This document shows, piece after piece, positions 11,974-53,273 of a stretch of DNA of 55,876 nt (within the stretch, counting starts at the first letter, position 1; each line of letters opens with the position of its first letter). Location: positions 1 through 55,876 of the forward strand of contig SVED01000005.1 in assembly GCA_015057515.1 (NCBI GenBank). Direction: 5' to 3'. A program made the position numbers and the translations under genes. This stretch comes from Lachnospiraceae bacterium (GTDB lineage: Bacteria > Bacillota > Clostridia > Lachnospirales > Lachnospiraceae). Under the pieces are notes generated by a model, which was not told the origin of the DNA, did no database searches, and worked only from the letters and a program-made list of their open reading frames with translations.

Positions 11974-13122
11974 ATGAGAAAAATTAAAGGATTGAAAAAA
12001 ACAATTTATTTGGTAATGTGTGCATTATTGCTTACAGGCTGTGGCAAAAAAGATGTTACTGTTGAGGAAAATAAAAATAGTTCAGTTTATGAAGCAGAAG
12101 TTTATACCACAGAGGAAAATAACGAAGAGTCAGTTGTTGAAGAGGAAGCAGAAAGTACAGAGATTCCAGAAGGAATAGTAATTAATGATGGCAGAGAAAG
12201 TTATGAGTATACTTTTAATCCTCATGTAATTCCGGATTTTTATGTAGAAACTTATGGTGAAGAATTTGTTGAATACTATAAAGGCTTCTGTGATGCAGTA
12301 TTAGCTGGCGAGGATAGCTTTGAATGTCCAGATTATGATACATATTGGAAGATTTTAGATGTAGCCTTCACTTTTTTACCTATAACATCTGATTGTCTAG
12401 ATATGCCAGTGTATGATGATAATACAATTGTTGATGGAAAATGCCAGATTGTGTATAGATATTCAAAGAATGAACATTTGAAGAATGTAGAAGAATTTAA
12501 GGCTAAGGTAGAAGAAGTAATAACTACGAATATACAGGAGGGTGATACAGAATTTGAGCGCGCTCTTAAGCTATATCAATATTGCAGTATGACTTATGTA
12601 TATGATTATGTACAGCTTGAAACAGGAGTAGTTACAGGGGATAAATTATGTGGTGGATATAGAATGATAATGGATGAGACTGGAATATGTCAGGAATATG
12701 CGGCCGCATATGCATATTTGCTGTTACAAGTTGGAATTGACGCTGATGTAGTGGGTGGATGGAATGATGATACTGCTCATGCATGGAATATTGTAAGAAT
12801 TGACAATCAGTATTATTACATGGACACTACATTTCAGAGTGGATATATGTCCTATCCATTATATTTCTTTGGTGTGACTATTGATGATTATGCCCAGTTG
12901 TCTGGTTTTCCCGCAGAATCGCACACTGTAGGCGGAACTAGCATGATTAAAGTTAATTACAACGACGTAAGCGATGATAGATTTGAAGAATTAAGAAAGT
13001 GTTATTTTTATGAGATTGACCATGATAATCATACCATAAAATATGAGGGGTACATTTATGAAGAGATTGATTATGAATCAGAGGATAATGGGGAGTTCTT
13101 TGAAGGTGAATTAGAATTTTAG
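11974..13122 (+). CDS. Lipoprotein with transglutaminase-like domain
   Basis: A 382-residue exported lipoprotein. The signal peptide ends in the lipobox LLTGC (Cys23), followed by an acidic, Glu-rich linker to about residue 65. The C-terminal half is a transglutaminase/protease-like fold with the triad Cys239 (GICQEYA), His269 (DTAHAW) and Asp284 (YMDTTF). Such domains act as proteases, peptidases or cross-linkers at the cell surface; the substrate is unknown. It is two bases from the 37-residue ORF and 76 bp before the ECF sigma gene. Confidence 0.85.
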   Translation: MRKIKGLKKTIYLVMCALLLTGCGKKDVTVEENKNSSVYEAEVYTTEENNEESVVEEEAESTEIPEGIVINDGRESYEYTFNPHVIPDFYVETYGEEFVEYYKGFCDAVLAGEDSFECPDYDTYWKILDVAFTFLPITSDCLDMPVYDDNTIVDGKCQIVYRYSKNEHLKNVEEFKAKVEEVITTNIQEGDTEFERALKLYQYCSMTYVYDYVQLETGVVTGDKLCGGYRMIMDETGICQEYAAAYAYLLLQVGIDADVVGGWNDDTAHAWNIVRIDNQYYYMDTTFQSGYMSYPLYFFGVTIDDYAQLSGFPAESHTVGGTSMIKVNYNDVSDDRFEELRKCYFYEIDHDNHTIKYEGYIYEEIDYESEDNGEFFEGELEF

Positions 13123-24856: not shown

Positions 24857-26995
24857 ATGAACATTCAAAAAATTATAGCAGAAGAATTAGGTGTAAAGCT
24901 CTGGCAGGTGGAAAAGACTATCGAGCTTATTGACGAGGGAAATACCATACCGTTTATTTCTCGATATAGAAAAGAGGTAACAGGCTCACTTAATGACGAA
25001 CAGCTTCGTAATTTAGATGAGAGACTTACATATCTTCGTAACTTAGAGGAGAAGAAAGCTACTGTGCTTTCAACTATTGAGGAGCAGGGCAAGCTTACTG
25101 ATGAGCTTCGTAAGCAAATTGAAGACGCTATGACCTTAGTTGCTGTAGAGGATTTGTATAGACCTTACAAGCCAAAGAGAAGAACAAGAGCTACTATAGC
25201 CAAGGAAAAAGGCTTAGAGGGGCTTGCGAATATCATAAGTCTTCAGATGACAGATAAGACTATCCTCAAAGAGGCAGAGGCCTATATTTCAGAGGAAAAA
25301 GAGGTCCTTACTGCTGAGGATGCTATTGCAGGAGCGAAGGATATTCTAGCTGAAGCCTATGCAGATGAGGCGGAATATAGAACAGCTATAAGAGATATGA
25401 CCAGAAAGAAGGGCAAGCTTGTATCTACAGCTAAGGACCCTGAGGCAAAGTCTGTTTATGAAATGTACTACGATTTCACAGAGGATATTAAGAAGGCTGT
25501 TGGCTATAGAATACTTGCTATTAATCGTGGTGAGGCAGAGAAGATACTCACTGTTAAGATTGAGGCTCCTGTAGATGATATTATTAGATATCTTAATAAG
25601 AAAATAATATATAAGGCTGACCATGATAGTGCAACCTATATTTTAGAAGCAATAAGCGATAGTTACGAAAGACTTATCGCCCCATCCATTGAGCGTGAGA
25701 TTAGAAATGAGCTTACAGATATGGCAGAAGAGGGAGCTATCAATGTATTTGGTAAAAACCTTCATCAGTTACTTATGCAGCCACCAGTTGCAGGACAGAC
25801 TGTGCTTGGCTGGGACCCTGCTTTTAGAACTGGCTGTAAGCTTGCTGTTGTGGACCCAACAGGAAAGGTTCTTGACACAATTGTAATTTACCCAACAGAG
25901 CCACAGAAAAAGATTGCTGAGGCTAAGCAGATACTTAAAAAGCTTATAGATAAGTATGGTATAACTCTTATTTCTCTTGGAAATGGTACAGCTAGCCGTG
26001 AGTCAGAGATGGTTATAGTAGAGCTTCTTAAGGAAATTAAGCAGGATGTTAAGTACGTTATAGTAAATGAGGCGGGAGCATCTGTATATTCAGCTAGTAA
26101 GCTTGCTACAGAGGAGTTCCCTAACTTTGATGTAGGACAAAGAAGTGCAGCATCTATAGCAAGACGTATTCAGGATCCCCTTGCAGAGCTTGTAAAGATT
26201 GACCCTAAGTCAATTGGTGTTGGTCAGTATCAGCACGATATGAACCAAAAGAACCTTGGAAATGCCTTAACAGGTGTAGTAGAGGATTGTGTTAACAGCG
26301 TAGGTGTTGACTTAAATACAGCTTCAGCACCACTTCTTGAGTACATTTCAGGTATCAATAAGACTTTGGCTAAAAATATTGTTACTTACCGTGAGGAAAA
26401 CGGACAGTTCAAAAACCGTAAGGAGCTTCTCAAGGTACCTAAGCTTGGACCAAAGGCTTACGAGCAGTGCGCAGGTTTCCTTCGTATCAATGGTGGAGAT
26501 GAAATCCTTGATACAACCAGTGTTCACCCAGAAAGCTATGAGGCTACAAAGAACCTTATGACCAAGCTTGGAATATCAGACGAAGAGTTAAAGAGTGGTG
26601 GTATGAAGGGCATCAGCGGAAAGATAACTAACACTGCTAAAATGGCAGAGGAGATAGGCCTTGGTGAACCAACCCTCGTAGATATAGTAAAAGAGCTTGA
26701 AAAGCCAGGCAGAGACCCTCGTGAAGAAATGGAAAAGCCAATACTTAGAAGTGATGTTCTTGATATGAAGGATCTAAAGGTAGGTATGGAACTTAAGGGA
26801 ACCGTAAGAAATGTAATAGACTTTGGTGCTTTCATAGATATAGGAGTTCACCAAGATGGACTTGTTCACATATCCAAGATGACAGATCGATACATTAAGC
26901 ATCCATTAGAAGTTGTATCTGTAGGCGATATAGTAGACGTTACAGTCATCGGAGTAGATATGGAGAAGAAACGTATACAGCTTTCAATGATATAA
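24857..26995 (+). CDS. tex: Tex-family RNA-binding transcription accessory protein
   Basis: A 712-residue Tex protein. It has an N-terminal Tex helical domain (GNTIPFISRYRKEVTGSLNDE near 29-48), a YqgF/RNase-H-like domain (GWDPAFRTGCKLAVVD), helix-hairpin-helix repeats (VDLNTASAPLLEYISGI, LLKVPKLGPKAYEQCAGFL) and a C-terminal S1 RNA-binding domain (about 640-712, GTVRNVIDFGAFIDIGV). Tex binds nucleic acid and affects transcription and stress tolerance; its exact role is unsettled. It runs to the edge of a large inverted repeat. Confidence 0.95.
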   Translation: MNIQKIIAEELGVKLWQVEKTIELIDEGNTIPFISRYRKEVTGSLNDEQLRNLDERLTYLRNLEEKKATVLSTIEEQGKLTDELRKQIEDAMTLVAVEDLYRPYKPKRRTRATIAKEKGLEGLANIISLQMTDKTILKEAEAYISEEKEVLTAEDAIAGAKDILAEAYADEAEYRTAIRDMTRKKGKLVSTAKDPEAKSVYEMYYDFTEDIKKAVGYRILAINRGEAEKILTVKIEAPVDDIIRYLNKKIIYKADHDSATYILEAISDSYERLIAPSIEREIRNELTDMAEEGAINVFGKNLHQLLMQPPVAGQTVLGWDPAFRTGCKLAVVDPTGKVLDTIVIYPTEPQKKIAEAKQILKKLIDKYGITLISLGNGTASRESEMVIVELLKEIKQDVKYVIVNEAGASVYSASKLATEEFPNFDVGQRSAASIARRIQDPLAELVKIDPKSIGVGQYQHDMNQKNLGNALTGVVEDCVNSVGVDLNTASAPLLEYISGINKTLAKNIVTYREENGQFKNRKELLKVPKLGPKAYEQCAGFLRINGGDEILDTTSVHPESYEATKNLMTKLGISDEELKSGGMKGISGKITNTAKMAEEIGLGEPTLVDIVKELEKPGRDPREEMEKPILRSDVLDMKDLKVGMELKGTVRNVIDFGAFIDIGVHQDGLVHISKMTDRYIKHPLEVVSVGDIVDVTVIGVDMEKKRIQLSMI

Positions 26996-26999
26996 AATG

Positions 27000-27412
27000 T
27001 TTCTGATAATATATTTTATGTATACTTTAATAGTTGGATATGTCTAATATATAGTCAACAATTCCTTCGCAACTCTACGGGTTTAAGTATTCCTACGGCT
27101 CGAGCTTTCGATGTTTGATTACGTGTCGCTCCCGGAACTCACGTGTCAAATGTAGGATGAGGCAATATTTTTTAGACAACTAGCTTGTACCAAATATCTT
27201 GATTTTATAATTTGCGATGTTTGCACAAGCGTAAAGTTGCTAAAAATATTGCCCCATCCTACATAGACACGTTCAGACATCCGTCCACGACACGATTCAT
27301 CGAAAGCTCTTGCGCCTAGGATTACTAAAAACCCTAATTGTCTTCAGGAATTGTTGACTATATATAAGACATATCCAACTACTAAATTACACATAAAATA
27401 TATTATCAGAAA
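27000..27412. repeat. 413-bp fold-back element (long imperfect inverted repeat)
   Basis: Two arms of about 185 bp are complementary across almost their whole length. The outermost 22 bp match perfectly (27000-27021 with 27391-27412). Other exact blocks pair 27031-27045 with 27367-27381, 27047-27066 with 27346-27365, and 27102-27113 with 27298-27309. Near the centre 27150-27175 pairs with 27240-27264 except one mismatch and one extra T. Mismatched stretches lie between the blocks. There is no ORF inside and no clear target-site duplication. It fills the gap between convergent tex and rpmB. It could be a MITE-like element, a structured RNA or a double-sided terminator. Confidence 0.9.
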
Positions 27413-27445
27413 AAAAATGGATGCTTAAAAGCATCCATTTTTTTA
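27411..27445 (-). terminator. Bidirectional terminator of rpmB (and tex)
   Basis: A symmetrical hairpin: an A-rich run, atggatgc, a short loop, gcatccat, then a T run. It works in both directions and lies 2 bp beyond the rpmB stop, touching the end of the large inverted repeat. Confidence 0.85.
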
Positions 27446-27446
27446 C

Positions 27447-27632
27447 TTAAGCTCTCTCAACTTTGCCTGATCTTAAGCATGATGTACAAACATAAATCTT
27501 CTTTGGAGAACCATCAACGATAGCCTTAACAGATTTGATGTTTGACTTCCACATTCTGTTTGATCTTCTATGAGAATGGCTCACATTGTTTCCGAAATGA
27601 GCTCCTTTTTCACAAATACTACACTTTGCCAC
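27447..27632 (-). CDS. rpmB: 50S ribosomal protein L28
   Basis: Large-subunit ribosomal protein, 61 residues. It starts at GTG 27632, read as MAKCSICEKG; the frame stays open further upstream, but ggaggtg lies 8 bases before this GTG and the product matches L28 exactly. It has the HSHRRSNRMWK signature and zinc-binding-type Cys pairs (CSIC near the N-terminus, CTSC near the C-terminus). It is divergent from the Asp23-family gene, a common Firmicute arrangement. Confidence 0.95.
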   Translation of the reverse strand: MAKCSICEKGAHFGNNVSHSHRRSNRMWKSNIKSVKAIVDGSPKKIYVCTSCLRSGKVERA

Positions 27633-27792
27633 TGCTTGCACCTCCTTGACAAAACTATTAACCCGTAGGTTTGCAACGTACATATTCTAACAAAAAAATA
27701 TACAATATGCAAGAAGAAATTTAATAATTTTACAAAAATATGAAAATGTGTTATATTTCATAGGGTGTTTAACTACAAAAACCCAATTGTAC

Positions 27793-29932: not shown

Positions 29933-29950
29933 GATAATGTGTTTATTAAA

Positions 29951-29984
29951 TCTCTCAAGGTTTAACCTTGGGAGATTTTTTCTT
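29951..29984 (+). terminator. Terminator after the fakA-like gene
   Basis: An 11-bp stem (tctctcaaggt / accttgggaga) with a 3-nt loop and a T tract. Confidence 0.9.
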
Positions 29985-30062
29985 TTTTTGATACAATTTT
30001 GATACATTTCGGTTTTATAATTCAATAAAGTAACAAAATTATGCTTGTTTGGAGTGATAATT

Positions 30063-31478
30063 ATGAGAAGATACAAGTGGATTATAATTATGGTATGTAT
30101 GCTAAGTCTCACCGGTTGTGGCAAGGATAAGGTAGACTACGTTACAGAAACGAATACCCCTACAGACGGCATAGCAACCAACATCTCTACAGGAACCCTT
30201 GAAGAGCAAATAGGTGCTGAGAATGTATGGGAGGAAGATATAGATGTTGACAAGGGAAAGAAAATATGTGCAGAGGTTGTTATACCAGACGCAACTGGCA
30301 TGAAGGTAGTAAATCTTGAAAGAGTCTCTTTTGATGCAGAGTTTAAAGAGAATTTTATGAATTGCCTGACAGATGGGCCAGTGTATAAGTATGATTATGA
30401 ATATCTTCCGAAGGCTGATATTCAGGAAAATATTGATTATTATAAGGGAATTATAGCTAATCTTGAGGAGCAGGGATATGAACCTTACAATGAGGACGAT
30501 GAATATTATCATTGGTATCGGGCTCTTAAGGCGGAAGAGGAGTTATTAGAGCAAGCCCCTGAGGATTATGTTTTGGCAGATGACTATTCTGGTTATACAT
30601 ACTTGTTTGAAAATGATGGTGTAGAATATATAGTGAATTTTATAGGTGATGTTAGTACTATGGATAGATGGATTGTCCTAGATGTGAAAAATCCAGAAGA
30701 AACTATAGATGAGAGTAATTATACAGGTGTATTTTATCAAACAACAGGAGACTACACCACAATGGACGAAGAGGATATAAATACTAACAGATGTGATATA
30801 ACCGAGGAAGAGGCAAAGAAGGCGGCTCTTGATTTTGTTAGTTGCCTAGAGCTTGGAGAGTTCAAGATTGTTGGTACAGAGATGATGTCCGTATATTGTA
30901 CTTTAGAGGATGGAAGTGCTGAAACATTTTACTATGGTTATTCCTTTAAACTATATAGGGCCATAGATGATATAGAGGTAGATGGAAATGACTATATAAA
31001 CTCCCCTGTTACCGATGAACAGTACAGAGAGAGTCTGACAGATAGCTATAACGCTGCTTCCTGTAACATGTGTTTTGAGGAAATTAAGATAGATGTGACA
31101 GATAAAGGTGTTGTTCGAATGACGTATATGTCACCTCATAGGTATAAGGAAACCGTGGCTGAGAACGTGAATTTGCAATCCTTTGACAGTGTTAAATCTG
31201 TTGCCATTGAAGAAATTTCGGCAAAGTCATATTATGAATATGATACTATGCGACGTATGGAGCTTGGATACTACAATTATTGGGATGAAGATACAGAAAA
31301 TACAGTGGTTATTCCAGTGTGGAAGCTTACCACAGACATCAGTGGTAATTGTACCCCGAGTGACTCTTATGTTCTTATAAATGCAATGGATGGTTCAGTT
31401 ATAAATGTAGGAAAACAGCATTACACAGGCTATTATTTAAGAGATGCAGAAGATGTAGATGAAAATACAGATAATTAA
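30063..31478 (+). CDS. Lipoprotein paralogue 1 of a five-gene array
   Basis: A 471-residue exported lipoprotein: basic N-terminus, hydrophobic core, lipobox SLTGC with Cys19, then the array-typical stalk DKVDYVTETNTPTD. The fold is unrecognised; the C-terminus ends with NAMDGSVINVGKQ, which recalls PepSY/YycI-type ends (a strand closing with D-x-x-x-G). Start ATG 30063 has ggagtg 6 bases upstream. It is the first gene after the fakA terminator and one of the two most divergent members. A TATAAT at 30016 has no well-spaced -35. Confidence 0.8.
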   Translation: MRRYKWIIIMVCMLSLTGCGKDKVDYVTETNTPTDGIATNISTGTLEEQIGAENVWEEDIDVDKGKKICAEVVIPDATGMKVVNLERVSFDAEFKENFMNCLTDGPVYKYDYEYLPKADIQENIDYYKGIIANLEEQGYEPYNEDDEYYHWYRALKAEEELLEQAPEDYVLADDYSGYTYLFENDGVEYIVNFIGDVSTMDRWIVLDVKNPEETIDESNYTGVFYQTTGDYTTMDEEDINTNRCDITEEEAKKAALDFVSCLELGEFKIVGTEMMSVYCTLEDGSAETFYYGYSFKLYRAIDDIEVDGNDYINSPVTDEQYRESLTDSYNAASCNMCFEEIKIDVTDKGVVRMTYMSPHRYKETVAENVNLQSFDSVKSVAIEEISAKSYYEYDTMRRMELGYYNYWDEDTENTVVIPVWKLTTDISGNCTPSDSYVLINAMDGSVINVGKQHYTGYYLRDAEDVDENTDN

Positions 31479-31493
31479 TTGAGGTGAAACAAG

Positions 31494-32891
31494 ATGAAAA
31501 GATTAAAAAAAGCTATATTTTGTATATCTATTACAATGCTACTTACCGGCTGTGGTAAGGATAAGGTGGAGTATGTTACAGAGACAAATACACCATCTGA
31601 TAGTGTAAGTACTGATATATCTATGGATTCTGTGGCTGATAAAATTGGATTTGATGAAGAGCTATGGGAGGAAACAGTAGATGATTCTACTGTCAAGAAA
31701 ATATGTGCCGGTATTACGATGCCTGATGTTTCTGGGATGAAGGTTATTGATGTGGAGATGCTCAATCATTCGGAGAACCCAGAATTAAAAGAAAATGTGC
31801 TTAAAGCTTTTGCAGAGGGTGAGATATATAGACTTGATGAGGGATACATTCCAAAATCATGCTATCAGGGAGCTGTTGATTCATATCAGGCGATTATAGA
31901 TGCAAATGGAAATAATATAGATGAAGAGTATTTAGATTATGGTAATGAATTGCTTGAGATATACAATCAAGCACCAGATGATTATGTTTTAGCGGACAAC
32001 TATGAGCCTAATGAGTACAGAATAGATCATGCTGGACTCAATATGGTAGTGACATTTGAACATAGTGAGGAGCATAATACTAATGAAATTTTGTTTCTTA
32101 TAGAATATACAGATGATTTAGTAGACAAACAAGATGAAAATGTAACAGTAGAATTTGGGAATGGTGGACAATATCTGACAGATGATAATAGATGTACTAT
32201 GTCAGTAGAGGAAGCGCAGCAAAAGGCGGAAGAATTTGTAGAAAAATTTAATGCTGGAGATTTCGTTGTTGTGGGCATAGAGCAGATTGCGGTTTATTTG
32301 TATCATGGTGATGTATACACAGTACCTGAAAGTTATAATGATGGATATATATTTTATTTTTATAGAGACATTGATGGTGTTGCTGTGGATGGAAATATGT
32401 ATGATAATGAGGACGCGAGACGTCAGGCTGTTGAGTCAACTGGCTCATATAATACTACACCGATTAGGTCTATGGAGCAGATAACAGTTTTTGTAAATGA
32501 TAAAGGTGTATTTGGAGCTCGATATTCATCTCCATTAGAGATAAAAGAAGTAGTGTCAGAAAATGTGAATTTGCTTGATTATGAGAATGTTAAAACTGTA
32601 GTTGTTCAAGAAATGTTGAAAAACGAGTACCATAATTATGTTACATTTAGATATATGGAACTTACATATTTCTTGTGGTATGACAAAGAAAATAATAAAT
32701 ATACTATAATACCAGCATGGAGAATATCTGATGATAGTCCGCAAAATATGCTGTATAAGAGTGATTATTTCGGAAATGTGGAGGGTCATGCTATTGTAGT
32801 TAACGCAATGGATGGAAGCATAATAAATGTAGGAGAACAAACAATATCCTTTTATGAGAATGAATCAGAAGAAACATCTGCGTCAGAATAA
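31494..32891 (+). CDS. Lipoprotein paralogue 2 of a five-gene array
   Basis: A 465-residue lipoprotein with lipobox LLTGC (Cys20) and the stalk DKVEYVTETNTPSDS, then DISMDSVADKIGFDEELWEE. It is most similar to paralogue 3 over its whole length. The middle is acidic and Tyr-rich. The C-terminal third has the shared blocks ITVFVNDKGVF, MELTYFLWYDK, IIPAWR and NAMDGSIINVGEQ. It starts 15 bp after paralogue 1 with SD gaggtg. Function unknown; the anchor predicts a location on the outer face of the membrane. Confidence 0.8.
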   Translation: MKRLKKAIFCISITMLLTGCGKDKVEYVTETNTPSDSVSTDISMDSVADKIGFDEELWEETVDDSTVKKICAGITMPDVSGMKVIDVEMLNHSENPELKENVLKAFAEGEIYRLDEGYIPKSCYQGAVDSYQAIIDANGNNIDEEYLDYGNELLEIYNQAPDDYVLADNYEPNEYRIDHAGLNMVVTFEHSEEHNTNEILFLIEYTDDLVDKQDENVTVEFGNGGQYLTDDNRCTMSVEEAQQKAEEFVEKFNAGDFVVVGIEQIAVYLYHGDVYTVPESYNDGYIFYFYRDIDGVAVDGNMYDNEDARRQAVESTGSYNTTPIRSMEQITVFVNDKGVFGARYSSPLEIKEVVSENVNLLDYENVKTVVVQEMLKNEYHNYVTFRYMELTYFLWYDKENNKYTIIPAWRISDDSPQNMLYKSDYFGNVEGHAIVVNAMDGSIINVGEQTISFYENESEETSASE

Positions 32892-32911
32892 TATGACACA
32901 GAGTAGATGGG

Positions 32912-32942
32912 TAACTCACTTCAGTAACGGAGGAAAGGAAAT
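32912..32942 (+). repeat. Repeated lipoprotein leader, copy A
   Basis: The intergenic sequence taactcacttcagtaacgg followed by aggaaaggaa stands before paralogue 3. The same leader recurs before paralogues 4 and 5, carrying the SD, and continues into nearly identical signal-peptide codons. Confidence 0.8.
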
Positions 32943-34394
32943 ATGAGAAAATATAAAACAATGTTATATATAGGCGTTATGCTAATTATACTTACCGGCT
33001 GCGGTAAGGAGGATAAGGTGGAATATGTTACTGAAACAAATACACCAACAGATAGCATAGATTCTGATATATCTATGGATTCTGTGGCTGATAAAATTGG
33101 ATTTGATGAAGAACTATGGGAGGAAGCAGTAGATGATTCTACTGTTAAGAGAATATATGCCAATGTTACAGTACCAGATGTTACTGGAATGAAGGTTATT
33201 GATGTTGAGATGCTTAATCACCAAGAAAGTCCAGAGGCAAAAGAAAATATACTCAAAGCCTTTGCGGAGGGTGAAATATATAGATTTGATGAGGGATATA
33301 TTCCAAAACCATACTATCAGGCTGATGTGGATTATTATCAGTCTGTTATAGATGCAAATGGAGATAATATGGACGAGTGGGTACTCGGAAAATATAATCA
33401 ATTATTTGAAACATATAATAATGCACCAGATGATTATGTTGTAGCTGATGATTTTGAGCCTAATTCATATAGAATAGATTATGATAACCTTAATATGTTG
33501 GTATCATTTAGGCGTTATAATGAATATGGCACTAGTAATAATTCTATTATGTTTACTTTAGAAGATACTAATTCCTTAGTAGAAGAACCTAATAAAAATG
33601 TAATGGTAGAATATGGTGCTGGTGGAGAGTATCTATCAGATGATAACCGATGTACAATGACTGTTGAGGAAGCGCAGGAAAAAGCGGAAGATTTTGTGGC
33701 AAAATTCAATGCTGGAGATTTTGAAGTTGTAGGCATAGAACAGATTGAGTTTAATGTTTATTACGGTGAGCTTGGCGGTTATATATACACAGAAACCGAA
33801 AACTATTATGATGGATATGTATTTCATTTCTTTAGAAGTATAGATGGGGTAACTGTTGATGGTAATATTTATCATGCAACTTCAGATGCGATAAAGCAAG
33901 CTCTTGATGCCGCAGGTGAAGATTTGACTGAGGCATATACTTATACACCAGTCAATTCCATGGAGCAAATAACTGTTTTCGTAAATGACAAAGGTGTGTT
34001 CGATGCTACATATAATTCCCCTGTGCAGATTAAAGAAGTAGTGGCAGATAATGTAAATCTTCTTAGCTATGACAATGTAAAAAATGTGATTATTGAGGAA
34101 ATGTTAAATAAAGATTACTACAAATATGTTACATTAAGACATATGGAGCTTACGTATTTCCTATGGCACGATAAGATAAATGATAAATACAGTATAGTGC
34201 CAGTGTGGCGGGCATCAGACGATAGCCCACAAACTATGTTATATGAATCTATGCTTTTCGGATATGGAGATACACATTTTATAGTGGCTAATGCAATGGA
34301 TGGAAGCATAATAAATGTAGGAGAACAGATGATATCCTTTTATAAGTATGAACCGGAAGAAACCTATGCATCAGATGAATATGTGACAGAGTAG
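32943..34394 (+). CDS. Lipoprotein paralogue 3 of a five-gene array
   Basis: A 483-residue lipoprotein (lipobox ILTGC, Cys20). The stalk carries an extra Glu (CGKEDKVEYVTETNT) and continues SDISMDSVADKIGFDEELWE, nearly identical to paralogue 2. The C-terminal blocks ITVFVNDKGVF, HMELTYFLWHDK and NAMDGSIINVGEQ are kept. A repeated intergenic leader (see the repeat entries) with SD cggagg stands before the ATG. The last coding codons (YVTE stop) match at DNA level the non-coding sequence after paralogue 2, showing that the duplication boundary slid. Confidence 0.8.
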   Translation: MRKYKTMLYIGVMLIILTGCGKEDKVEYVTETNTPTDSIDSDISMDSVADKIGFDEELWEEAVDDSTVKRIYANVTVPDVTGMKVIDVEMLNHQESPEAKENILKAFAEGEIYRFDEGYIPKPYYQADVDYYQSVIDANGDNMDEWVLGKYNQLFETYNNAPDDYVVADDFEPNSYRIDYDNLNMLVSFRRYNEYGTSNNSIMFTLEDTNSLVEEPNKNVMVEYGAGGEYLSDDNRCTMTVEEAQEKAEDFVAKFNAGDFEVVGIEQIEFNVYYGELGGYIYTETENYYDGYVFHFFRSIDGVTVDGNIYHATSDAIKQALDAAGEDLTEAYTYTPVNSMEQITVFVNDKGVFDATYNSPVQIKEVVADNVNLLSYDNVKNVIIEEMLNKDYYKYVTLRHMELTYFLWHDKINDKYSIVPVWRASDDSPQTMLYESMLFGYGDTHFIVANAMDGSIINVGEQMISFYKYEPEETYASDEYVTE

Positions 34395-34399
34395 ATGGA

Positions 34400-34430
34400 T
34401 AACTCGCTATAGTAACGGAGGAAAGCAATT
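34400..34430 (+). repeat. Repeated lipoprotein leader, copy B
   Basis: taactcgctatagtaacgg followed by aggaaagcaatt, before paralogue 4. It differs from copy C (35855-35885) at two positions. It includes the SD. Confidence 0.8.
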
Positions 34431-35852
34431 ATGAAAAAGTATAAAATAATATTATATATAGGCATTTTGCTAATCCTTATGACTGGCTGCGGCAAGGACA
34501 AGGTGGAGTATGTCACAGATACAAATACACCAACAGACAGTATAGGTTCAGATATATCTATGACTTCTGTAGCTGAAAAGGTGGGAGTGGATGAGGAACT
34601 GTGGGAAGAGGCAGTAGACGATGCCACAGTAAAGCGTATATACGCAGAGGTTAATGTTCCTGATGTTACTAGCATGAAGGTTATAAATATGGAAAAACTG
34701 GATTATGCTAATAGTCCTGAGCTGAAAGAGAGTTTTATAACAACAGTTACTGACACCCCAGTTTACTGTTATGGTGAAGGGTATTACATAAAAGAAGAGC
34801 TTGATGATGATGTTAAGTATTATGAAAACATAATTAATATTCGGACTGAAGCTGGTGAAGTGGTGGAACAAGAATTTTATGATATGTATAACGAAGCTGT
34901 CGAGTTGTATGAAAATGCACCAGATGAATATACAGAAATAACAGATTTCTCAGGAGACGAATATCTATTTACTTCTGATACAAATGGAATGAATTATATA
35001 ATATCTTTTTACTCAAATGACTTAATTGATAATTATGGTATAAGTATGGAACTCCAAAATATGGAAGATTTAGTTGAAGCAAATGGACAGCGTGTGAGAT
35101 TTGACTCAATATATTATCATGATTATGTGTCGCCAGAGGATAATCAATGTACTATATCCGAGGAAGATGCTCTGGTAATGGCTGAAGATTTTGTGGAAAA
35201 TCTTGGGGTAGGGGAGTTTGATTTGTATTCAACACACTATTTGGAATACACCTTTTTTAGAGGAAATATAGATGAATATGATTTTACAGAAGAAGAAAAA
35301 TTATATGATGGATATAGTTTTAAATTTATAAGAACAGTAGATGGTATTTTTTGCGTTAATAATAATTTTGCAGGTGAACAACCCATAATAGAAGAACAAG
35401 CACGAGAGGTTTATGGTGCTGAAACTGATGATGCTTTTTTCGGACCAAATTATTTACCGGAAGGGATTACAATAAATGTAAGTAGTAAAGGGATAGTGAG
35501 CTTTCATTATGGATGTCCTATGACTCAACAAGAAACTTTGTATGACAATGTTAATTTGTTATCTTATGACAGTGTGAAGAATGTCTTTATTGAAGAAATA
35601 TATGAAAAAGATTACTATGATATGACTACGTTTAGATATTTAGAACTTACATACTTTGTAAATGTCGATAAGGAAACAGATGCACACACCATGGTTCCTG
35701 TTTGGTTGCTATATAGTAAATCTCAGGTAGATGGTGATTATGATCCAGAATACTCATTTGTTTTGATAAATGCAATGGATGGAAGTGTCATAAATGTAGG
35801 AGAACAGATGATGAAACCATTTTACTATTCGGATTTTTATCCAGATGAGTAG
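34431..35852 (+). CDS. Lipoprotein paralogue 4 of a five-gene array
   Basis: A 473-residue lipoprotein (lipobox LMTGC, Cys20). The stalk is KDKVEYVTDTNTPTDSIG, then SDISMTSVAEKVGVDEELWE. The N-terminal 70 residues track paralogues 2 and 3, whereas the middle (about 90-330) is clearly different in sequence. The C-terminal NAMDGSVINVGEQ end is retained. This mosaic pattern, with conserved ends and a variable centre, suggests recombination among members or diversifying selection on the exposed domain. Confidence 0.8.
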   Translation: MKKYKIILYIGILLILMTGCGKDKVEYVTDTNTPTDSIGSDISMTSVAEKVGVDEELWEEAVDDATVKRIYAEVNVPDVTSMKVINMEKLDYANSPELKESFITTVTDTPVYCYGEGYYIKEELDDDVKYYENIINIRTEAGEVVEQEFYDMYNEAVELYENAPDEYTEITDFSGDEYLFTSDTNGMNYIISFYSNDLIDNYGISMELQNMEDLVEANGQRVRFDSIYYHDYVSPEDNQCTISEEDALVMAEDFVENLGVGEFDLYSTHYLEYTFFRGNIDEYDFTEEEKLYDGYSFKFIRTVDGIFCVNNNFAGEQPIIEEQAREVYGAETDDAFFGPNYLPEGITINVSSKGIVSFHYGCPMTQQETLYDNVNLLSYDSVKNVFIEEIYEKDYYDMTTFRYLELTYFVNVDKETDAHTMVPVWLLYSKSQVDGDYDPEYSFVLINAMDGSVINVGEQMMKPFYYSDFYPDE

Positions 35853-35854
35853 GT

Positions 35855-35885
35855 CAACTCACTATAGTAACGGAGGAAAGCAGTT
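35855..35885 (+). repeat. Repeated lipoprotein leader, copy C
   Basis: caactcactatagtaacgg followed by aggaaagcagtt, before paralogue 5. It is nearly the same as copy B. Confidence 0.8.
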
Positions 35886-37427
35886 ATGAGAAAATATAAA
35901 ATAATGTTATATATGGGCATTATGCTAATCCTTATGACTGGCTGTGGCAAGGACAAGGTGGAGTATGTGGATGAAACGCAAAACTTGCAAGCTACAGCTA
36001 GTGATGCGTCTATAGAGGATATAAAGACCAAGCTTTCTGTGGAGGATTATTGGGAGGAAATTGTTGATTTAGAAGCTGGTAAAAAGGTTGAGGCTAATGT
36101 TTCAGTTCCTGACGTTATAGGCATGAAAGTGGTGACTGCAACACAGAAGTTTTATGGACCGGAGGATAGAGAGCAACTTATTAATGCCATAGCTGATGGT
36201 GAAGTATATAAGTATGATTATGATTTTTTGCCTAAGGTAGATATATATCCTTTATTAGAGGAACACAGAGTATGGGTTGAAGCAATGGAAGAATCTGGTG
36301 CCTTTGAGGCAACAATCGAGTATTATGAGAACGGTGGTTTCTATTCGGTAGAATACAATGAGTTAGAAAAAGAATATGAAGAATTAGCTGAGTATGAAAA
36401 GGATTATGAGGCGGCATCTGAGAATTTGCTTGTAGTAGATGATTATGAGAACCAAGTATATCGATTTGATTATAATGGATTAGATTTTTTGATGACATTT
36501 TATGATTACGAGTATAACGCCAAAAGATATTGTGCTCCTTTTGAACCCGATGAAAAGATAATGTCAGAATTTAAGTATGAATACGCTGATTTGCAAACTA
36601 TTGAAATGACTTTGTTTGACTCGAGAGATATATTAGGAGATGATTTATATCAGAGTATAAATATGAATTTGGGTAATATAAAACCTGATGCAGAAAATAA
36701 ATGCACCATATCTGTTGAGAGAGCACAAAGTATGGCTGAGGATATGGTGGAGGCTATGGATGTAGGTGACTTTAAGATGGTTAAAACTTATCCATTACAT
36801 CTAAGTTGTTATATAGATGAAGTTAATTCAGACAGTATCTATAATGGTCATGTTTTTTATTTTTATAGAGAAATTGATGATGTGACAGTAGATGGAAATA
36901 TATATAAATATCTTGATTATACCAGAGCTGAACAATTATGCATGGAGGAATATATTAGCACTTATTATACCGAGGAAGAATATAATGATAGAATAGAAAA
37001 TGACGGCATAGGAATCGGTGCAGATATTTTTTCAGCTTGTTGTTTTGAGGAGATTATTATATGTGTCAATGACAATGGAATCATATATATGAAATACGAT
37101 GCCCCAAAAGAGATTACCAGTGTACTTGCTAAGGATGTAAGTATGGTTTCTTTCGATGGAATTAAGAATTCTGTTAAGGATGAAATGCTTGCTAGTGAAG
37201 TGTATGATTACAGAACATTTAGATATATGGAGCTTACATATTTTCCTCTTAGAAATAAGGATGACATTAATTCATATTCCATAGTTCCAGCTTGGAGATT
37301 ATCAAGTACTGAACCAATTGATTCAAAAGATTATATTGTAATAAATGCCATGGATGGAAGTATGATTAATGTGGGGGCACATAGATGGAATATATTTGAT
37401 TTTCAAGAGACTGGATTAACTCAATAG
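35886..37427 (+). CDS. Lipoprotein paralogue 5 of a five-gene array
   Basis: A 513-residue lipoprotein (lipobox LMTGC, Cys20), the longest member. Its signal peptide is nearly identical to those of paralogues 3 and 4, but the stalk soon diverges (KDKVEYVDETQNLQATASD) and lacks the TNTPTDS block. The middle has a Glu/Tyr-rich helical stretch at about 110-165. The C-terminus keeps FRYMELTYF, IVPAWR and NAMDGSMINVG. It is the last gene of the array and lies 164 bp before recG. Confidence 0.8.
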   Translation: MRKYKIMLYMGIMLILMTGCGKDKVEYVDETQNLQATASDASIEDIKTKLSVEDYWEEIVDLEAGKKVEANVSVPDVIGMKVVTATQKFYGPEDREQLINAIADGEVYKYDYDFLPKVDIYPLLEEHRVWVEAMEESGAFEATIEYYENGGFYSVEYNELEKEYEELAEYEKDYEAASENLLVVDDYENQVYRFDYNGLDFLMTFYDYEYNAKRYCAPFEPDEKIMSEFKYEYADLQTIEMTLFDSRDILGDDLYQSINMNLGNIKPDAENKCTISVERAQSMAEDMVEAMDVGDFKMVKTYPLHLSCYIDEVNSDSIYNGHVFYFYREIDDVTVDGNIYKYLDYTRAEQLCMEEYISTYYTEEEYNDRIENDGIGIGADIFSACCFEEIIICVNDNGIIYMKYDAPKEITSVLAKDVSMVSFDGIKNSVKDEMLASEVYDYRTFRYMELTYFPLRNKDDINSYSIVPAWRLSSTEPIDSKDYIVINAMDGSMINVGAHRWNIFDFQETGLTQ

Positions 37428-37591: not shown

Positions 37592-39602
37592 ATGGAGTTA
37601 TATGACAACATTACAACTATAAAGGGAATAGGAGATAAGACTGCAGCCTCCTTTGCAAGACTTGGGATACATACTGTGAAGGATTTGATTAGCACATATC
37701 CTAGAAATTATCTTACCTATGGTGAGCCAGTAGATATTAAGGATACTGCTGTAGGGGAGAGGTGCGCCATTACGGCTATAATTTCCTCTGGAGTTTATTC
37801 AAGAAAGGTCAGAAGTCTCAACATTACTACAATGACTGTTAAGGACAGTACTGGTTCAGTTCAGATAACTTGGTTTAATTCTCCGTTCTTGCAGAAGGTT
37901 TTTCATAAGGGTGAGACCTATGTGTTCGTAGGAACTATTAAGGTTAAGAATAATATGCGAATTCTTGAAATGCCAGAATACTATAAGCCGGCAGTATATG
38001 AGGGTATGCGTCAGGAAATGCAACCTATTTATCCTCTTACTCAGGGACTTTCCAATAAAACTTTCCAAAAGGCTGTAATTAACTGTAGAGAAACCATATA
38101 TAAGATGGAGGATTACCTTCCTGATACAGTAAGGTATGATAACAGTCTTATGGAGATTACAGAAGCCTACGAAAATGTACATTTTCCTATGAATGAAACA
38201 GTGCTTAAGAATGCCATCAGAAGATTTGCTTTCGATGAGTTCTACAAGTTTTTATATGATATGGGAAGCTTAAAGGCTGAAAATGTGGAGCAGGAAAACT
38301 GCCATATTATAGTTCAAGGCAAGGCTGTGGCAGATTTTATTGATGAGTTGCCATATAAATTTACAAAGGGACAGGCTGAGGCTATAGAAGATATACTTTC
38401 AGATATGGGCAGCGACCGTATTATGAATAGATTAGTACAGGGAGATGTTGGTTCAGGAAAGACTATAGTCGCTATAACAGCTCTTTATGCCACTGTAAAG
38501 CAGGGTTTTCAGGGTGCTCTTATGGTGCCAACTGAGGTTTTGGCAAAGCAACATTTTACGGAGCTATCTAAGATTTTTGCAAGTTACAATATAAGTGTGG
38601 CTTGTTTAGTGGGTTCTCTTTCTATGAAGGAGAAGCGTCAGATATATGACAAGGTTTCCTCTGGTGAGGTTGATATTCTTATAGGAACTCACGCTCTTAT
38701 AGAGGATAAGGTGGAATTTAAGGATTTAGGATTAGTTATAACAGACGAGCAGCATAGATTCGGTGTTAATCAACGTAAAAAGCTTGCTTCTAAGGGAACA
38801 TTTCCCCACGTTTTAGTTATGAGTGCAACACCAATTCCTAGAACACTTGCTATTATTATGTACGCTGATTTGGATATATCTGTTATTTCAGAGCTTCCAA
38901 AGGGAAGAAAGCGTATAATGAACTGTGTTGTAGGAACTAATTATAGAAACAGCCTATCAGTTTATTGCTGGCCAGATAGCTGAGGGCAGTCAGGTTTATG
39001 TTATCTGTCCAATGGTAAACGAAAGTGATACTCTTGATGTTACTAATGTAGTGGAGTATACAGATACATTAAAGGGAGCGCTTCCACCATCCGCTAGAGT
39101 AGCTATGCTTCATGGGCAGATGAAGGCTGATGAAAAAAATAGTATTATGGATGAATTTTTAGCTGGCAATATTGATGTACTTGTGTCTACAACAGTTATT
39201 GAGGTAGGTATAAATAACCCTAACGCTACAGTTATGATGGTGGAAAATGCAGAACGTTTTGGTTTAGCACAGTTACACCAGTTAAGAGGACGAGTAGGAC
39301 GAGGCACAAAGCAGTCGTACTGTATATTTGTAAATGGGAAGGAGTCAAAGGAGTCTACAGAACGTCTTAAGGTGCTTGAAGAGTCAAACGATGGCTTTTA
39401 TATAGCCAGTGAGGACTTAAAGCTTCGTGGACCTGGGGATTTCTTTGGAATAAGGCAGAGTGGTGAGGTTTTATTTACCTTAGCTGATATATATAACCAC
39501 GCTGATATGTTAAAGCTGGCTCAGGATATATATAGAAAATATGGGGACAAGGTTATACCACCGAGCCAAAATGAAAAGAATGTAACGGATACTATATTGT
39601 AG
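37592..39602 (+). pseudogene. recG: ATP-dependent DNA helicase RecG, interrupted by a frameshift
   Basis: Branch-migration helicase that remodels stalled forks. The N-terminal part (37592-38983) has the wedge/OB domain and helicase motifs (LVQGDVGSGKT, DEQHRFGV, MSATPIPRT). The frame then shifts near 38945-38949, and the next frame carries ETAYQFIAGQIAEG, YVICPMVNES, QLRGRVGRG and the C-terminus to 39602. Restoring two bases (AG, giving YRETAY) yields a normal 670-residue protein. It is either a sequencing/assembly error or a real lesion that would cut off helicase domain 2. Confidence 0.88.
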
Positions 39603-39647: not shown

Positions 39648-39682
39648 TGCAACAGCTATATTGTTTGGCTGTTGCATTTTTT
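39648..39682 (+). terminator. Terminator after recG
   Basis: A 9-bp stem (tgcaacagc / gctgttgca) with an 11-nt loop and a T6 tract. Confidence 0.85.
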
Positions 39683-51095: not shown

Positions 51096-51139
51096 GTTTG
51101 TATGTGGTTAGATTTTGTCAGATTACAAGGGGATTTTAT

Positions 51140-52024
51140 ATGATTCAACAAGTTGACAATTATATAGATTATTTGAATAATGTTAAGCGTGCAAGCAATA
51201 ACACGGTAGCGTCATATAAGCGTGATTTGTTGAAGCTTTGTAATTATTTTGATGGGATTGGTTGTAACAACCCTACAGATATTAGTGCTACGGATTTGAG
51301 TTCTTATATTATTTCTTTGGAAAAAGTGGGAATGTCTTCGGCTACTATATCTAGAAATATTGCCAGCATCAAATCTTTCTTTATGTTTATGCTAAAGAAA
51401 GGTATTATCAAAGAGGATTGTTCGGAGCAGCTTAAACCACCTAAGGTTGAGAAGAAAGCACCAGAGGTTCTCACTGTTGAAGAGGTTAATCTTTTGTTGG
51501 ATCAACCGTCTAAGGTTACTCCAAAAGAGATAAGAGATAAGGCTATGCTTGAGCTTCTTTATGCTACAGGTATGAGAGTGTCTGAGCTTGTATCCCTTAA
51601 AATAGAAGATGTCAATCTTTCTATGGGATATATATGTTGTAGGGATTCTAGTAAGGAACGAGTTATACCTATTGAGAATGCAGCAAGAGTTGCTCTTGAG
51701 AATTATATCAAGAATGCCAGAGATAACATGTGTGAGGGTGGTAATTATCTTTTTGCAAATCTAAAGGGACAGCCTATGACAAGACAGGGCTTTTGGAAGC
51801 TTATCAAGGCATATGCAAAAAGAGCTGGTATTAACAAAGATATTACCCCTCATATGATTAGACATTCTTTTGCATCGCATCTTGTGATTAATGGAGCAGA
51901 CCTAAAGGCTGTTCAAGAGATGTTAGGTCATTCGGACATCTCAACAACCCAAATCTACTTAAAGAGTAGACAAAGTCGAATCAAAGAAGAGTATGATAGA
52001 GCACATCCTCGTGCAAAGGCATAA
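51140..52024 (+). CDS. xerD: Tyrosine recombinase XerD
   Basis: Site-specific recombinase that resolves chromosome dimers at dif. It has 294 residues from ATG 51140 (SD aagggga). It has an N-terminal SAM-like DNA-binding domain (1-95) and a catalytic domain with Arg in TGMRVSEL, Lys in SSKERVIP, HMIRHSFASHL, LGHSDISTTQIYLK, and the nucleophile Tyr in the last motif. XerC is the alternative. The spoIIM neighbour favours XerD. No dif site was recognised here. Confidence 0.93.
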   Translation: MIQQVDNYIDYLNNVKRASNNTVASYKRDLLKLCNYFDGIGCNNPTDISATDLSSYIISLEKVGMSSATISRNIASIKSFFMFMLKKGIIKEDCSEQLKPPKVEKKAPEVLTVEEVNLLLDQPSKVTPKEIRDKAMLELLYATGMRVSELVSLKIEDVNLSMGYICCRDSSKERVIPIENAARVALENYIKNARDNMCEGGNYLFANLKGQPMTRQGFWKLIKAYAKRAGINKDITPHMIRHSFASHLVINGADLKAVQEMLGHSDISTTQIYLKSRQSRIKEEYDRAHPRAKA

Positions 52025-52079: not shown

Positions 52080-52125
52080 TTTTCCCTTTATACATATAGC
52101 AATTGATACATAATAGATACAAAAA

Positions 52126-52175: not shown

Positions 52176-53273
52176 TTAGCTGTAAATTTTAGCAAGATTG
52201 TCTATTCGTGATGTAGCATTTGTCATAAGAAGATCTAAAATGGTTATAGCACACATGGATTCAACCACAACTACGGCACGTGGTCCTATGATAGGGTCGT
52301 GACGGCCCTTTATATTGATGTCAACCTCATCTAGGTTGGAGTTTACAGTGTGTTGCTCCTTGTAGATGGATGGAGTGGGTTTGATAGAAGCGCGAACTAA
52401 GATGTCAGAACCATCACTTATGCCACCAAGAATACCACCTGCGTGGTTAGTAGTCTTGGATACCTGACCATCTTTTGCAACAAAGCTGTCGTTGTTAGTT
52501 GAGCCTAGGGCTGTGCTAACAGCTACACCGTCACCAATTTCTACAGCCTTTACAGCACCTATAGACATAAGTGCTTGAGCAAGAAGAGCATCCAATTTAT
52601 CAAAAACCGGTTCACCTACACCAGCAGGAACACCTGAAATAATACATTCTACAGAGGAGCCAATAGAGTCGAGGTTAGTCATAACTTCCCTTAGGTAGTC
52701 TGCCGCTGCCTCAGCACAAGCCTTGTCAGGCATATATAAGGAGTTCTTCATAATTTCAGAAGAGTCAAAGTGATTGTAGTCAATAACGTGTGGTCCAATA
52801 GAACGAGTGTATGCAGAAAAGGAAATGCCTAAGGTAGAAAGAACCTTTGCGGCAACCGCACCAGCAGCCACACGACCAATGGTTTCTCTTCCGGAAGAAC
52901 GTCCACCACCTCTGTAGTCTCTGAAACCAAATTTTTCATCAAAGCAATAGTCAGCGTGGCCTGGTCTATAGCATACGGCTATATCGCCATAATCCTTTGA
53001 ATGCTGATCCTGATTATACACCACCATAGAAATAGGCGTGCCAGTAGTTTTGCCTTCAAAGACACCTGATAGAATAGTTACAGCGTCAGCCTCATTTCTT
53101 TTGGTAGAAAAAACACTTTGACCAGGCTTCCTTCTATCAAGATATATCTGTATATCTTCCTCACAAAGAGGAACACCAGCAGGACAACCATCAACTACAA
53201 CGCCTAAAGCCTTGCCGTGAGATTCTCCCCAAGTGCTAATTTTAAATAGTCTTCCAAATGTTGAACCACCCAT
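52176..53273 (-). CDS. aroC: Chorismate synthase AroC
   Basis: Last common step of aromatic amino-acid synthesis (EPSP to chorismate, reduced FMN needed). It has 365 residues: the N-terminal STWGESHGKALGVVVDGCPAG, RPGQSVFSTKRNEAD, and GRSSGRETIGRVAAGA, all family signatures. The SD agaggaa precedes ATG 53273. It is divergent from rpsO. The aroE and aroK genes are 0.6-1.6 kb away on the other strand, forming a loose shikimate cluster. Confidence 0.97.
   Translation of the reverse strand: MGGSTFGRLFKISTWGESHGKALGVVVDGCPAGVPLCEEDIQIYLDRRKPGQSVFSTKRNEADAVTILSGVFEGKTTGTPISMVVYNQDQHSKDYGDIAVCYRPGHADYCFDEKFGFRDYRGGGRSSGRETIGRVAAGAVAAKVLSTLGISFSAYTRSIGPHVIDYNHFDSSEIMKNSLYMPDKACAEAAADYLREVMTNLDSIGSSVECIISGVPAGVGEPVFDKLDALLAQALMSIGAVKAVEIGDGVAVSTALGSTNNDSFVAKDGQVSKTTNHAGGILGGISDGSDILVRASIKPTPSIYKEQHTVNSNLDEVDINIKGRHDPIIGPRAVVVVESMCAITILDLLMTNATSRIDNLAKIYS

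Follow-up and report, generated by a model that had tools for sequence, protein, structure and literature searches.

Between fakA and recG in a 55,876-nucleotide stretch of DNA from a Lachnospiraceae bacterium (contig SVED01000005.1, positions 1 to 55,876, assembly GCA_015057515.1; hereafter the window), five open reading frames (ORFs) follow one another head to tail on the + strand, and all of them encode lipoproteins. The window is contig C68 of a 2.15-Mb assembly that is 85% complete. The five genes lie at 30063..31478 (protein 1, P0001, 471 amino acids (aa)), 31494..32891 (protein 2, P0002, 465 aa), 32943..34394 (protein 3, P0003, 483 aa), 34431..35852 (protein 4, P0004, 473 aa), and 35886..37427 (protein 5, P0005, 513 aa), separated by gaps of 15–51 base pairs (bp). 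They match the Pfam family DUF6034 (PF19499) at 113.3, 76.1, 75, 83.4, and 63 bits, respectively, and because all five scores exceed the gathering cut-off of 27, the match is not due to chance. Pfam catalogues DUF6034 without giving a function. The initial annotation of this DNA had described five tandem lipoproteins of 465–513 residues between the two housekeeping genes, ending in a block of the form NAMDGSxINVG. This description was confirmed: a TGC lipobox stands behind a signal peptide in 5/5, and NAMDGS.INVG is found near the C-terminus in 5/5.

The sequence upstream of the array reads TTTTGATACAATTTTGATACATTTCGGTTTTATAAT. It contains a GATACA-N5-GATACA direct repeat with an 11-bp period (29990..30006, +), proposed as a response-regulator box, and a proposed −10 element, TATAAT (30016..30021, +), 9 bp past the second half-site, the whole being a perfect composite match (29990–30021). 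An 11-bp direct repeat just upstream of the −10 element is the arrangement used by OmpR/PhoB-type activators. A search of the bacterium's own assembly for GATACA-N5-GATACA-N9-TANNNT gave six perfect matches, no match with a single mismatch, and 12 with two; the reversed control gave 14 matches at up to two mismatches. The six perfect sites precede the array, the only DUF6034 gene outside it (C6:15838–17196), the regulator-kinase operon and the adaptor-exporter operon of contig C93, and two further genes, one on C80 for a PEBP-family lipoprotein and one on C85 for a secreted protein of ChW/transglutaminase-like type. The array promoter thereby shares the box, at equal distance from the −10 element, with both the regulator and the exporter operons. 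A terminator-like stem-loop with a T run (29948..29978, +) lies 3′ of fakA and separates it from the array; the next on the + strand (39648..39676) lies 3′ of recG. Terminator-like sites are no commoner than chance (three in 12 kb versus 3.9 expected in shuffled sequences), so the support for a terminator after fakA comes from its position and not from the number of such sites. In the simplest reading the array would form one operon, and its transcript might read through from the array promoter into recG.

Exporter operons of the C93 type encode two HlyD-like adaptors with a lipobox (recognized by eye), an FtsX/MacB-type permease of about 930–995 aa where complete, and, where they are in view, two ATP-binding cassette (ABC) ATPases. 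Genes next to them usually include those for a HAMP-type histidine kinase and an OmpR-type regulator. On contig C93 itself, HATPase_c, HisKA, HAMP, Response_reg, Trans_reg_C, FtsX, and MacB_PCD exceed their Pfam cut-offs, the ABC ATPases are recognized by phmmer, and the second adaptor (MFP2, 25443–27665) passes the cut-offs of HlyD and Biotin_lipoyl. A DUF6034 gene stands directly before the first adaptor gene in 12 of the 47 loci chosen for DUF6034 and in 6 of the 20 chosen for the second adaptor; at two loci, L117 and L118, regulator, kinase, and DUF6034 genes follow in that order on one strand, and the L142 locus brings together the genes for kinase, regulator, DUF6034, both adaptors, and permease. 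Of 37 genomes from the genus, 29 have both DUF6034 and the second adaptor, five have neither, and three have only one of them (Fisher p 0.0003, the genomes being non-independent); genomes with any second adaptor have one to two matches, some of them pieces of one gene. Behind the exporter ATPases of C93 lies a gene for a 324-aa lipoprotein without a Pfam match (L173:16651–17625), with a stalk (GCGNDKV) similar to that of the array (GCGKDKV).

Because the box is common to the array, the C6 gene, and both C93 operons, we consider it very probable (roughly 85%) that the array is a remote part of an envelope-response regulon whose two-component system and exporter are encoded elsewhere, on C93. 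Just as probably, the C93 OmpR-type regulator would bind GATACA-N5-GATACA, which would stand where a −35 element is otherwise expected, and would activate the exporter operon, the operon that encodes the regulator itself, and the two DUF6034 loci.

The box also accompanies DUF6034 in other genomes of the genus. The strict repeat has 36 sites in 12/37 genomes, versus one control match; 30/36 precede genes of the proposed system, namely DUF6034 (22, one of which, in G002, has a partial DUF6034 match 410 bp downstream), the module regulator (six, two of them recognized by eye), and the first adaptor (two). The others precede the bacterium's own PEBP lipoprotein, an ORF resembling D-Tyr-tRNA deacylase (by eye), and a 481-aa ORF without assigned identity (one each), or lie within ORFs (two) or at a contig end (one). 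The strict box was not found in the seven genomes of the genus that lack DUF6034. A relaxed scan covered 260 bp upstream and the first 70 bp of each gene and dropped four duplicate or cut loci, ORFs below 150 aa, and genes with too little upstream sequence; close relatives in it are non-independent. Under these settings the box precedes 36/57 first DUF6034 genes, compared with 0/237 and 1/297 of the remaining genes, 10/75 internal DUF6034 genes, and 1/150 other module genes, and it is present in 23/28 genomes examined. Among 66 distinct promoters, 36 have their best TATAAT-like hexamer starting 9 bp past the second half-site, the position at which the mean match also peaks (4.45/6). The half-site variant is consistent across promoter classes in 10 of the 11 genomes with at least two classes (G017 is mixed), which is modest evidence because only two variants are involved.

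Several observations weigh against this regulon. The strict box is absent from 18/30 DUF6034-bearing genomes of the genus, 21/57 first DUF6034 genes have no relaxed box, and the relaxed box precedes only 7/31 regulator-like and 8/30 adaptor-like genes. In the bacterium's own genome the bare repeat with one mismatch hardly exceeds the control (23 vs 19), the C93 module has no DUF6034 gene, and the first adaptor is only sub-threshold in Pfam. Mature DUF6034 proteins are strongly acidic, with a median of −11.4 net charges per 100 aa (n = 129) versus −6.5 in 37 other lipobox-like ORFs. The first adaptor is equally acidic (median −10.8, n = 28), and acidity is therefore not specific and constitutes weak evidence.

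The module regulators of the genus mostly read TRTLDLH[IV]QR[LI]RKK, and those of L117 and L118, where the box is absent, read [TC]RTVDVHIGQLRKK. We do not claim a rule that relates helix to box, as L120 and L122 (SRTLDLHIQRLRKK) also have no box and L127, L137, and L142 (SRTVDLHVQRLRKK) have one. Some distant DUF6034 genes without a GATACA box (L117:7219, L122:9734) show upstream TTTACA-type 11-bp repeats by eye.

The five proteins are conserved unevenly. On the 481-position PF19499 profile, proteins 1–4 extend to position 477 and protein 5 covers 8–431. Mean pairwise identity among the five is 0.45 in the signal peptide and highest, 0.65, in the stalk; it falls from 0.47 (residues 45–91) through 0.35 (92–136) and 0.27 (137–170) to 0.21 (171–240), recovers to 0.39 (241–306), drops to 0.21 in a loop (307–338), reaches 0.43–0.49 at 339–450, and is 0.16 in the tail (451–471). 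The divergent centre between conserved ends, as initially annotated, is thus real, but variation also affects the outermost C-terminal tail. A DKVEYVTETNTP-like stalk is readily recognized in 4/5; the fifth protein reads DKVEYVDETQNL. Genes 2 and 3, at 64–66% identity, form a younger pair; the remaining pairs share 31–43%. Across 47 relatives the lipobox Cys, P418, W420, N440, A441, D443, and G444 (protein 1 numbering) are invariant, and PF19499 was found in 42/47 of their C-terminal domains at E ≤ 0.1. The most distant DUF6034 members rest on a custom profile, which was checked against one built from the window and G loci only. With the custom profile, another lipoprotein of the window (11974–13122), with a transglutaminase-like stretch recognized by eye, scores 31 bits, probably owing to its signal and stalk region. 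An early impression of fused double DUF6034 genes was dropped, as the ORF lists give separate genes.

For protein 1, structure prediction gave a model that is confident between residue 42 and roughly residue 460 (mean predicted local distance difference test score, pLDDT, 84.8). With the full-length model, fold searches of the PDB and of BFVD gave no match at E ≤ 0.001; a sequence search for a solved relative of the array proteins gave none at a useful E-value, and an NCBIfam scan of the array proteins gave nothing above cut-off. The model of the C-terminal domain (pLDDT 89.1) had one PDB match at E ≤ 0.001, chain A of autoprocessed vibriolysin MCP-02 (3nqz; E 4e-4, template modeling (TM) scores 0.37/0.45), which is taken to be the propeptide from its length of 175 residues. 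YycI (PF09648) matches 10/47 C-terminal domains, all below threshold; the best score, 25.2 bits for the C-terminal domain of protein 1 (22.8 bits for the full-length protein), compares with a cut-off of 29.7. PepSY (PF03413) reaches 13.5 bits in protein 1, versus a cut-off of 24, and matches 3/47 C-terminal domains at E ≤ 0.1, again below cut-off (best E 0.0028). No YycI or YycH structure was among the best 50 matches listed for either the full-length or the C-terminal model. The loose likeness to PepSY/YycI domains that had been suggested for the C-terminus accordingly persists in weak form, in the YycI hits and the single fold match, but it does not reach either family cut-off and the TM-scores are low. 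We would say that the C-terminal half weakly resembles PepSY/YycI domains.

How might such lipoproteins serve the regulon? The kinase might respond to a compound that acts on the envelope, for example an antimicrobial peptide, or to envelope material that has been damaged. In the lipoproteins, anchored outside the membrane, binding of such ligands could fall to the variable N-terminal half and the loops, and the conserved PepSY/YycI-like C-terminal half might contact a partner common to all of them, with the HlyD-like/FtsX exporter as the likeliest candidate; tandem copies would widen the ligand range or raise the dose. We tentatively propose that the set is induced together with the exporter and captures envelope-active ligands via its variable half. 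An output role of this kind is favoured by the many copies that face a single exporter, by the promoter type that they share with it, and, weakly, by their acidity. In a broader and rather speculative form, a gut commensal lineage would maintain a set of PepSY-like capture lipoproteins that can grow, with several copies in each genome, some of them encoded at a distance from the pump; a promoter box moving together with these genes would connect them all to a single sensor-exporter, and the set would vary between species because the envelope-active peptides met in the gut vary from host to host.

The YycI-like domain, together with the regulator-kinase-DUF6034 order in L117 and L118, would instead favour control of the kinase. 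In this alternative, the main rival, DUF6034 lipoproteins would touch the extracellular part of the kinase and tune it in the manner of YycH/YycI and WalK, and, being expressed from the regulator's box themselves, would complete a feedback circuit. The gene order parallels walR-walK-yycH-yycI, and PMC7355866 describes YycH and YycI as activators of WalK in S. aureus. According to PMC7355866, however, YycH and YycI reach WalK by transmembrane helices, whereas the array proteins are lipoproteins. Several co-induced copies per genome would be odd for a tuner, no YycI/YycH structure emerged among the listed matches for either model, and the L117 and L118 regulators differ in the presumed recognition helix at loci where the box is absent. 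We therefore regard this alternative as doubtful, though not far-fetched.

The array has grown locally. At E ≤ 0.001, DUF6034 occurs in 30/37 genomes of the genus, the largest number of matches in a single genome being 20; in the order, 19/294 sampled genomes have it at E ≤ 1e-6, our genome included. In 20 fakA loci from other genomes, DUF6034 copies number three in G016, the closest relative by fakA (94% identity), one plus another after recG in G017, one in G013, and none in 17; recG adjoins fakA in 16 of these 17, and the remaining locus, L084, ends before recG. Five copies here versus 3/2/1 in those relatives bear out the local expansion in a housekeeping neighbourhood that had been noted initially, and the expansion is lineage-specific. 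In a tree of 85/99 DUF6034 proteins, from which 14 proteins of five near-duplicate loci were omitted, the fakA-recG copies of our genome, G016, and G017 and our C6 copy form one clade (95/84), separate from the module-linked copies of G017. G016 has orthologues of gene 1 (88% identical) and gene 3 (90% identical), and its third member is at most 36% identical to any window gene. Over the first 40 codons, gene 3 is nearer to gene 4 (proportion of nonsynonymous differences, pN, 0.10) than to its own G016 orthologue (0.26), and that orthologue matches gene 2 (pN 0.01). Ends have thus been swapped between genes of the array. Between gene 3 (32943–34394) and its orthologue (L079:1339–2787), the proportion of synonymous differences (pS) is 0.00–0.04 in codons 161–280 and up to 0.52 elsewhere, which suggests a recent exchange between species. 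In G018 and G025, a DUF6034 pair (L115:5478–8434, L116:4409–7435) lies between homologues of window genes 53901, with shikimate dehydrogenase domains, and 52176, chorismate-synthase-like by eye, as another insertion in a housekeeping neighbourhood.

The conserved ends and varied centres had initially been ascribed to diversifying pressure as one possibility, an idea that finds no support between species. We took 50 reciprocal-best between-species pairs at 55–97% identity and retained the 36 with pS ≤ 0.55; the pooled ratio of nonsynonymous to synonymous divergence (dN/dS) is 0.13–0.47 in every region. All regions are under purifying selection between species, and the middle is merely less constrained. 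The two window/G016 pairs have dN/dS of 0.24 and 0.19, versus 0.058 each for fakA and recG. In one stretch of 40 codons from residue 119 of protein 1, pN is 0.18 and pS 0.19 against the G016 orthologue, over a length too short to claim selection.

These values also bear on ordinary neutral duplication, in which a lipoprotein of low importance multiplies by unequal crossing-over and drifts, inheriting its box passively. The grouping of the locus copies with those of G016 and G017, copy numbers that vary between close species, and a dN/dS some 3–4 times that of fakA and recG would fit such a history. It is nevertheless improbable: the ratios are still those of purifying selection, the box and its −10 spacing persist in 66 distinct promoters, and the half-site variant agrees across classes in 10/11 genomes, a modest point with two variants only. 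PepSY-type and PEBP families both include protease inhibitors, and the lipoproteins might guard the surface against extracellular proteases as peptidase inhibitors, in keeping with the vibriolysin chain as sole fold match at E ≤ 0.001, the PEBP lipoprotein at one of our six sites, and another within the L101 array, but this is the least likely account, given TM-scores of 0.37/0.45, sub-threshold PepSY in only 3/47 C-terminal domains, and an exporter and exporter linkage that it leaves unexplained.

The proposed regulon with its capture lipoproteins has relatives among known systems. Two-component/exporter modules and adaptor-bearing MacB-type pumps in Gram-positive bacteria are known kinds, as PMC5985334 describes, and so are YycH/YycI kinase partners (PMC7355866). 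The module shares an FtsX/MacB-type permease, ABC ATPases, and HlyD-like adaptors with the MacB-type YknXYZ, and a two-component system beside an FtsX/ABC exporter with BceRS-BceAB, as both are presented in PMC5985334. BceAB has no adaptor, whereas the C93-type module has the HlyD-like second adaptor. The module differs from both systems by two lipobox adaptors, a HAMP-type kinase, and one or many DUF6034 lipoproteins, whose genes can lie far from it. With YycH/YycI the array proteins share sub-threshold YycI similarity, extracellular location, and a tie to an OmpR-type two-component system; they differ by a lipobox (5/5) replacing the transmembrane helix, by their multiple copies, by a length roughly double that of YycI, by an additional N-terminal domain, and by the exporter linkage. 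Any likeness to the PepSY/FTP propeptide of vibriolysin MCP-02 would be one of fold in the C-terminal domain (E 4e-4), at low TM-scores (0.37/0.45) and 13% identity and with no protease domain in the array proteins.

In the open-licence literature of PubMed Central, no paper names DUF6034, and remote, expandable lipoprotein arrays tied to an exporter by a box did not appear among the papers listed by our searches; as far as these searches show, the promoter box and the sensor-exporter link are new for DUF6034. They provide a first functional handle on the family and a small regulon predicted from sequence alone, which comprises six promoters within the 85% of the genome that is assembled. Lipoprotein genes can thus sit outside a resistance-type module and still have the promoter box of that module. 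Should the proposed capture be true, commensals would have a variable repertoire of surface proteins against envelope-active compounds.

The bare GATACA repeat has eight exact matches in our genome. The one at 52105–52121 was discounted as a promoter, lying between the convergent genes 51098–52024 and 52176–53273 with no −10 element at the right distance and accompanied by terminator-like stems; the one at C115:86 was discounted because it has no −10 element at the right distance. The window's recG consists of two ORFs (37592–38983 and 39012–39602), and in relatives where no contig end truncates it, recG is a single ORF of 669–688 aa; the split is either a frame break or an assembly error. One PEBP-family lipoprotein gene lies inside the DUF6034 array of L101 (6307–6972) and one carries one of the six boxes of our genome (C80; L195:805–1497); L102 and L103 have ORFs similar in size and place to that of L101. 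The boxed C85 protein (L196) is secreted and has ChW repeats and a transglutaminase-like domain, and cell-surface remodelling may therefore be part of the response.

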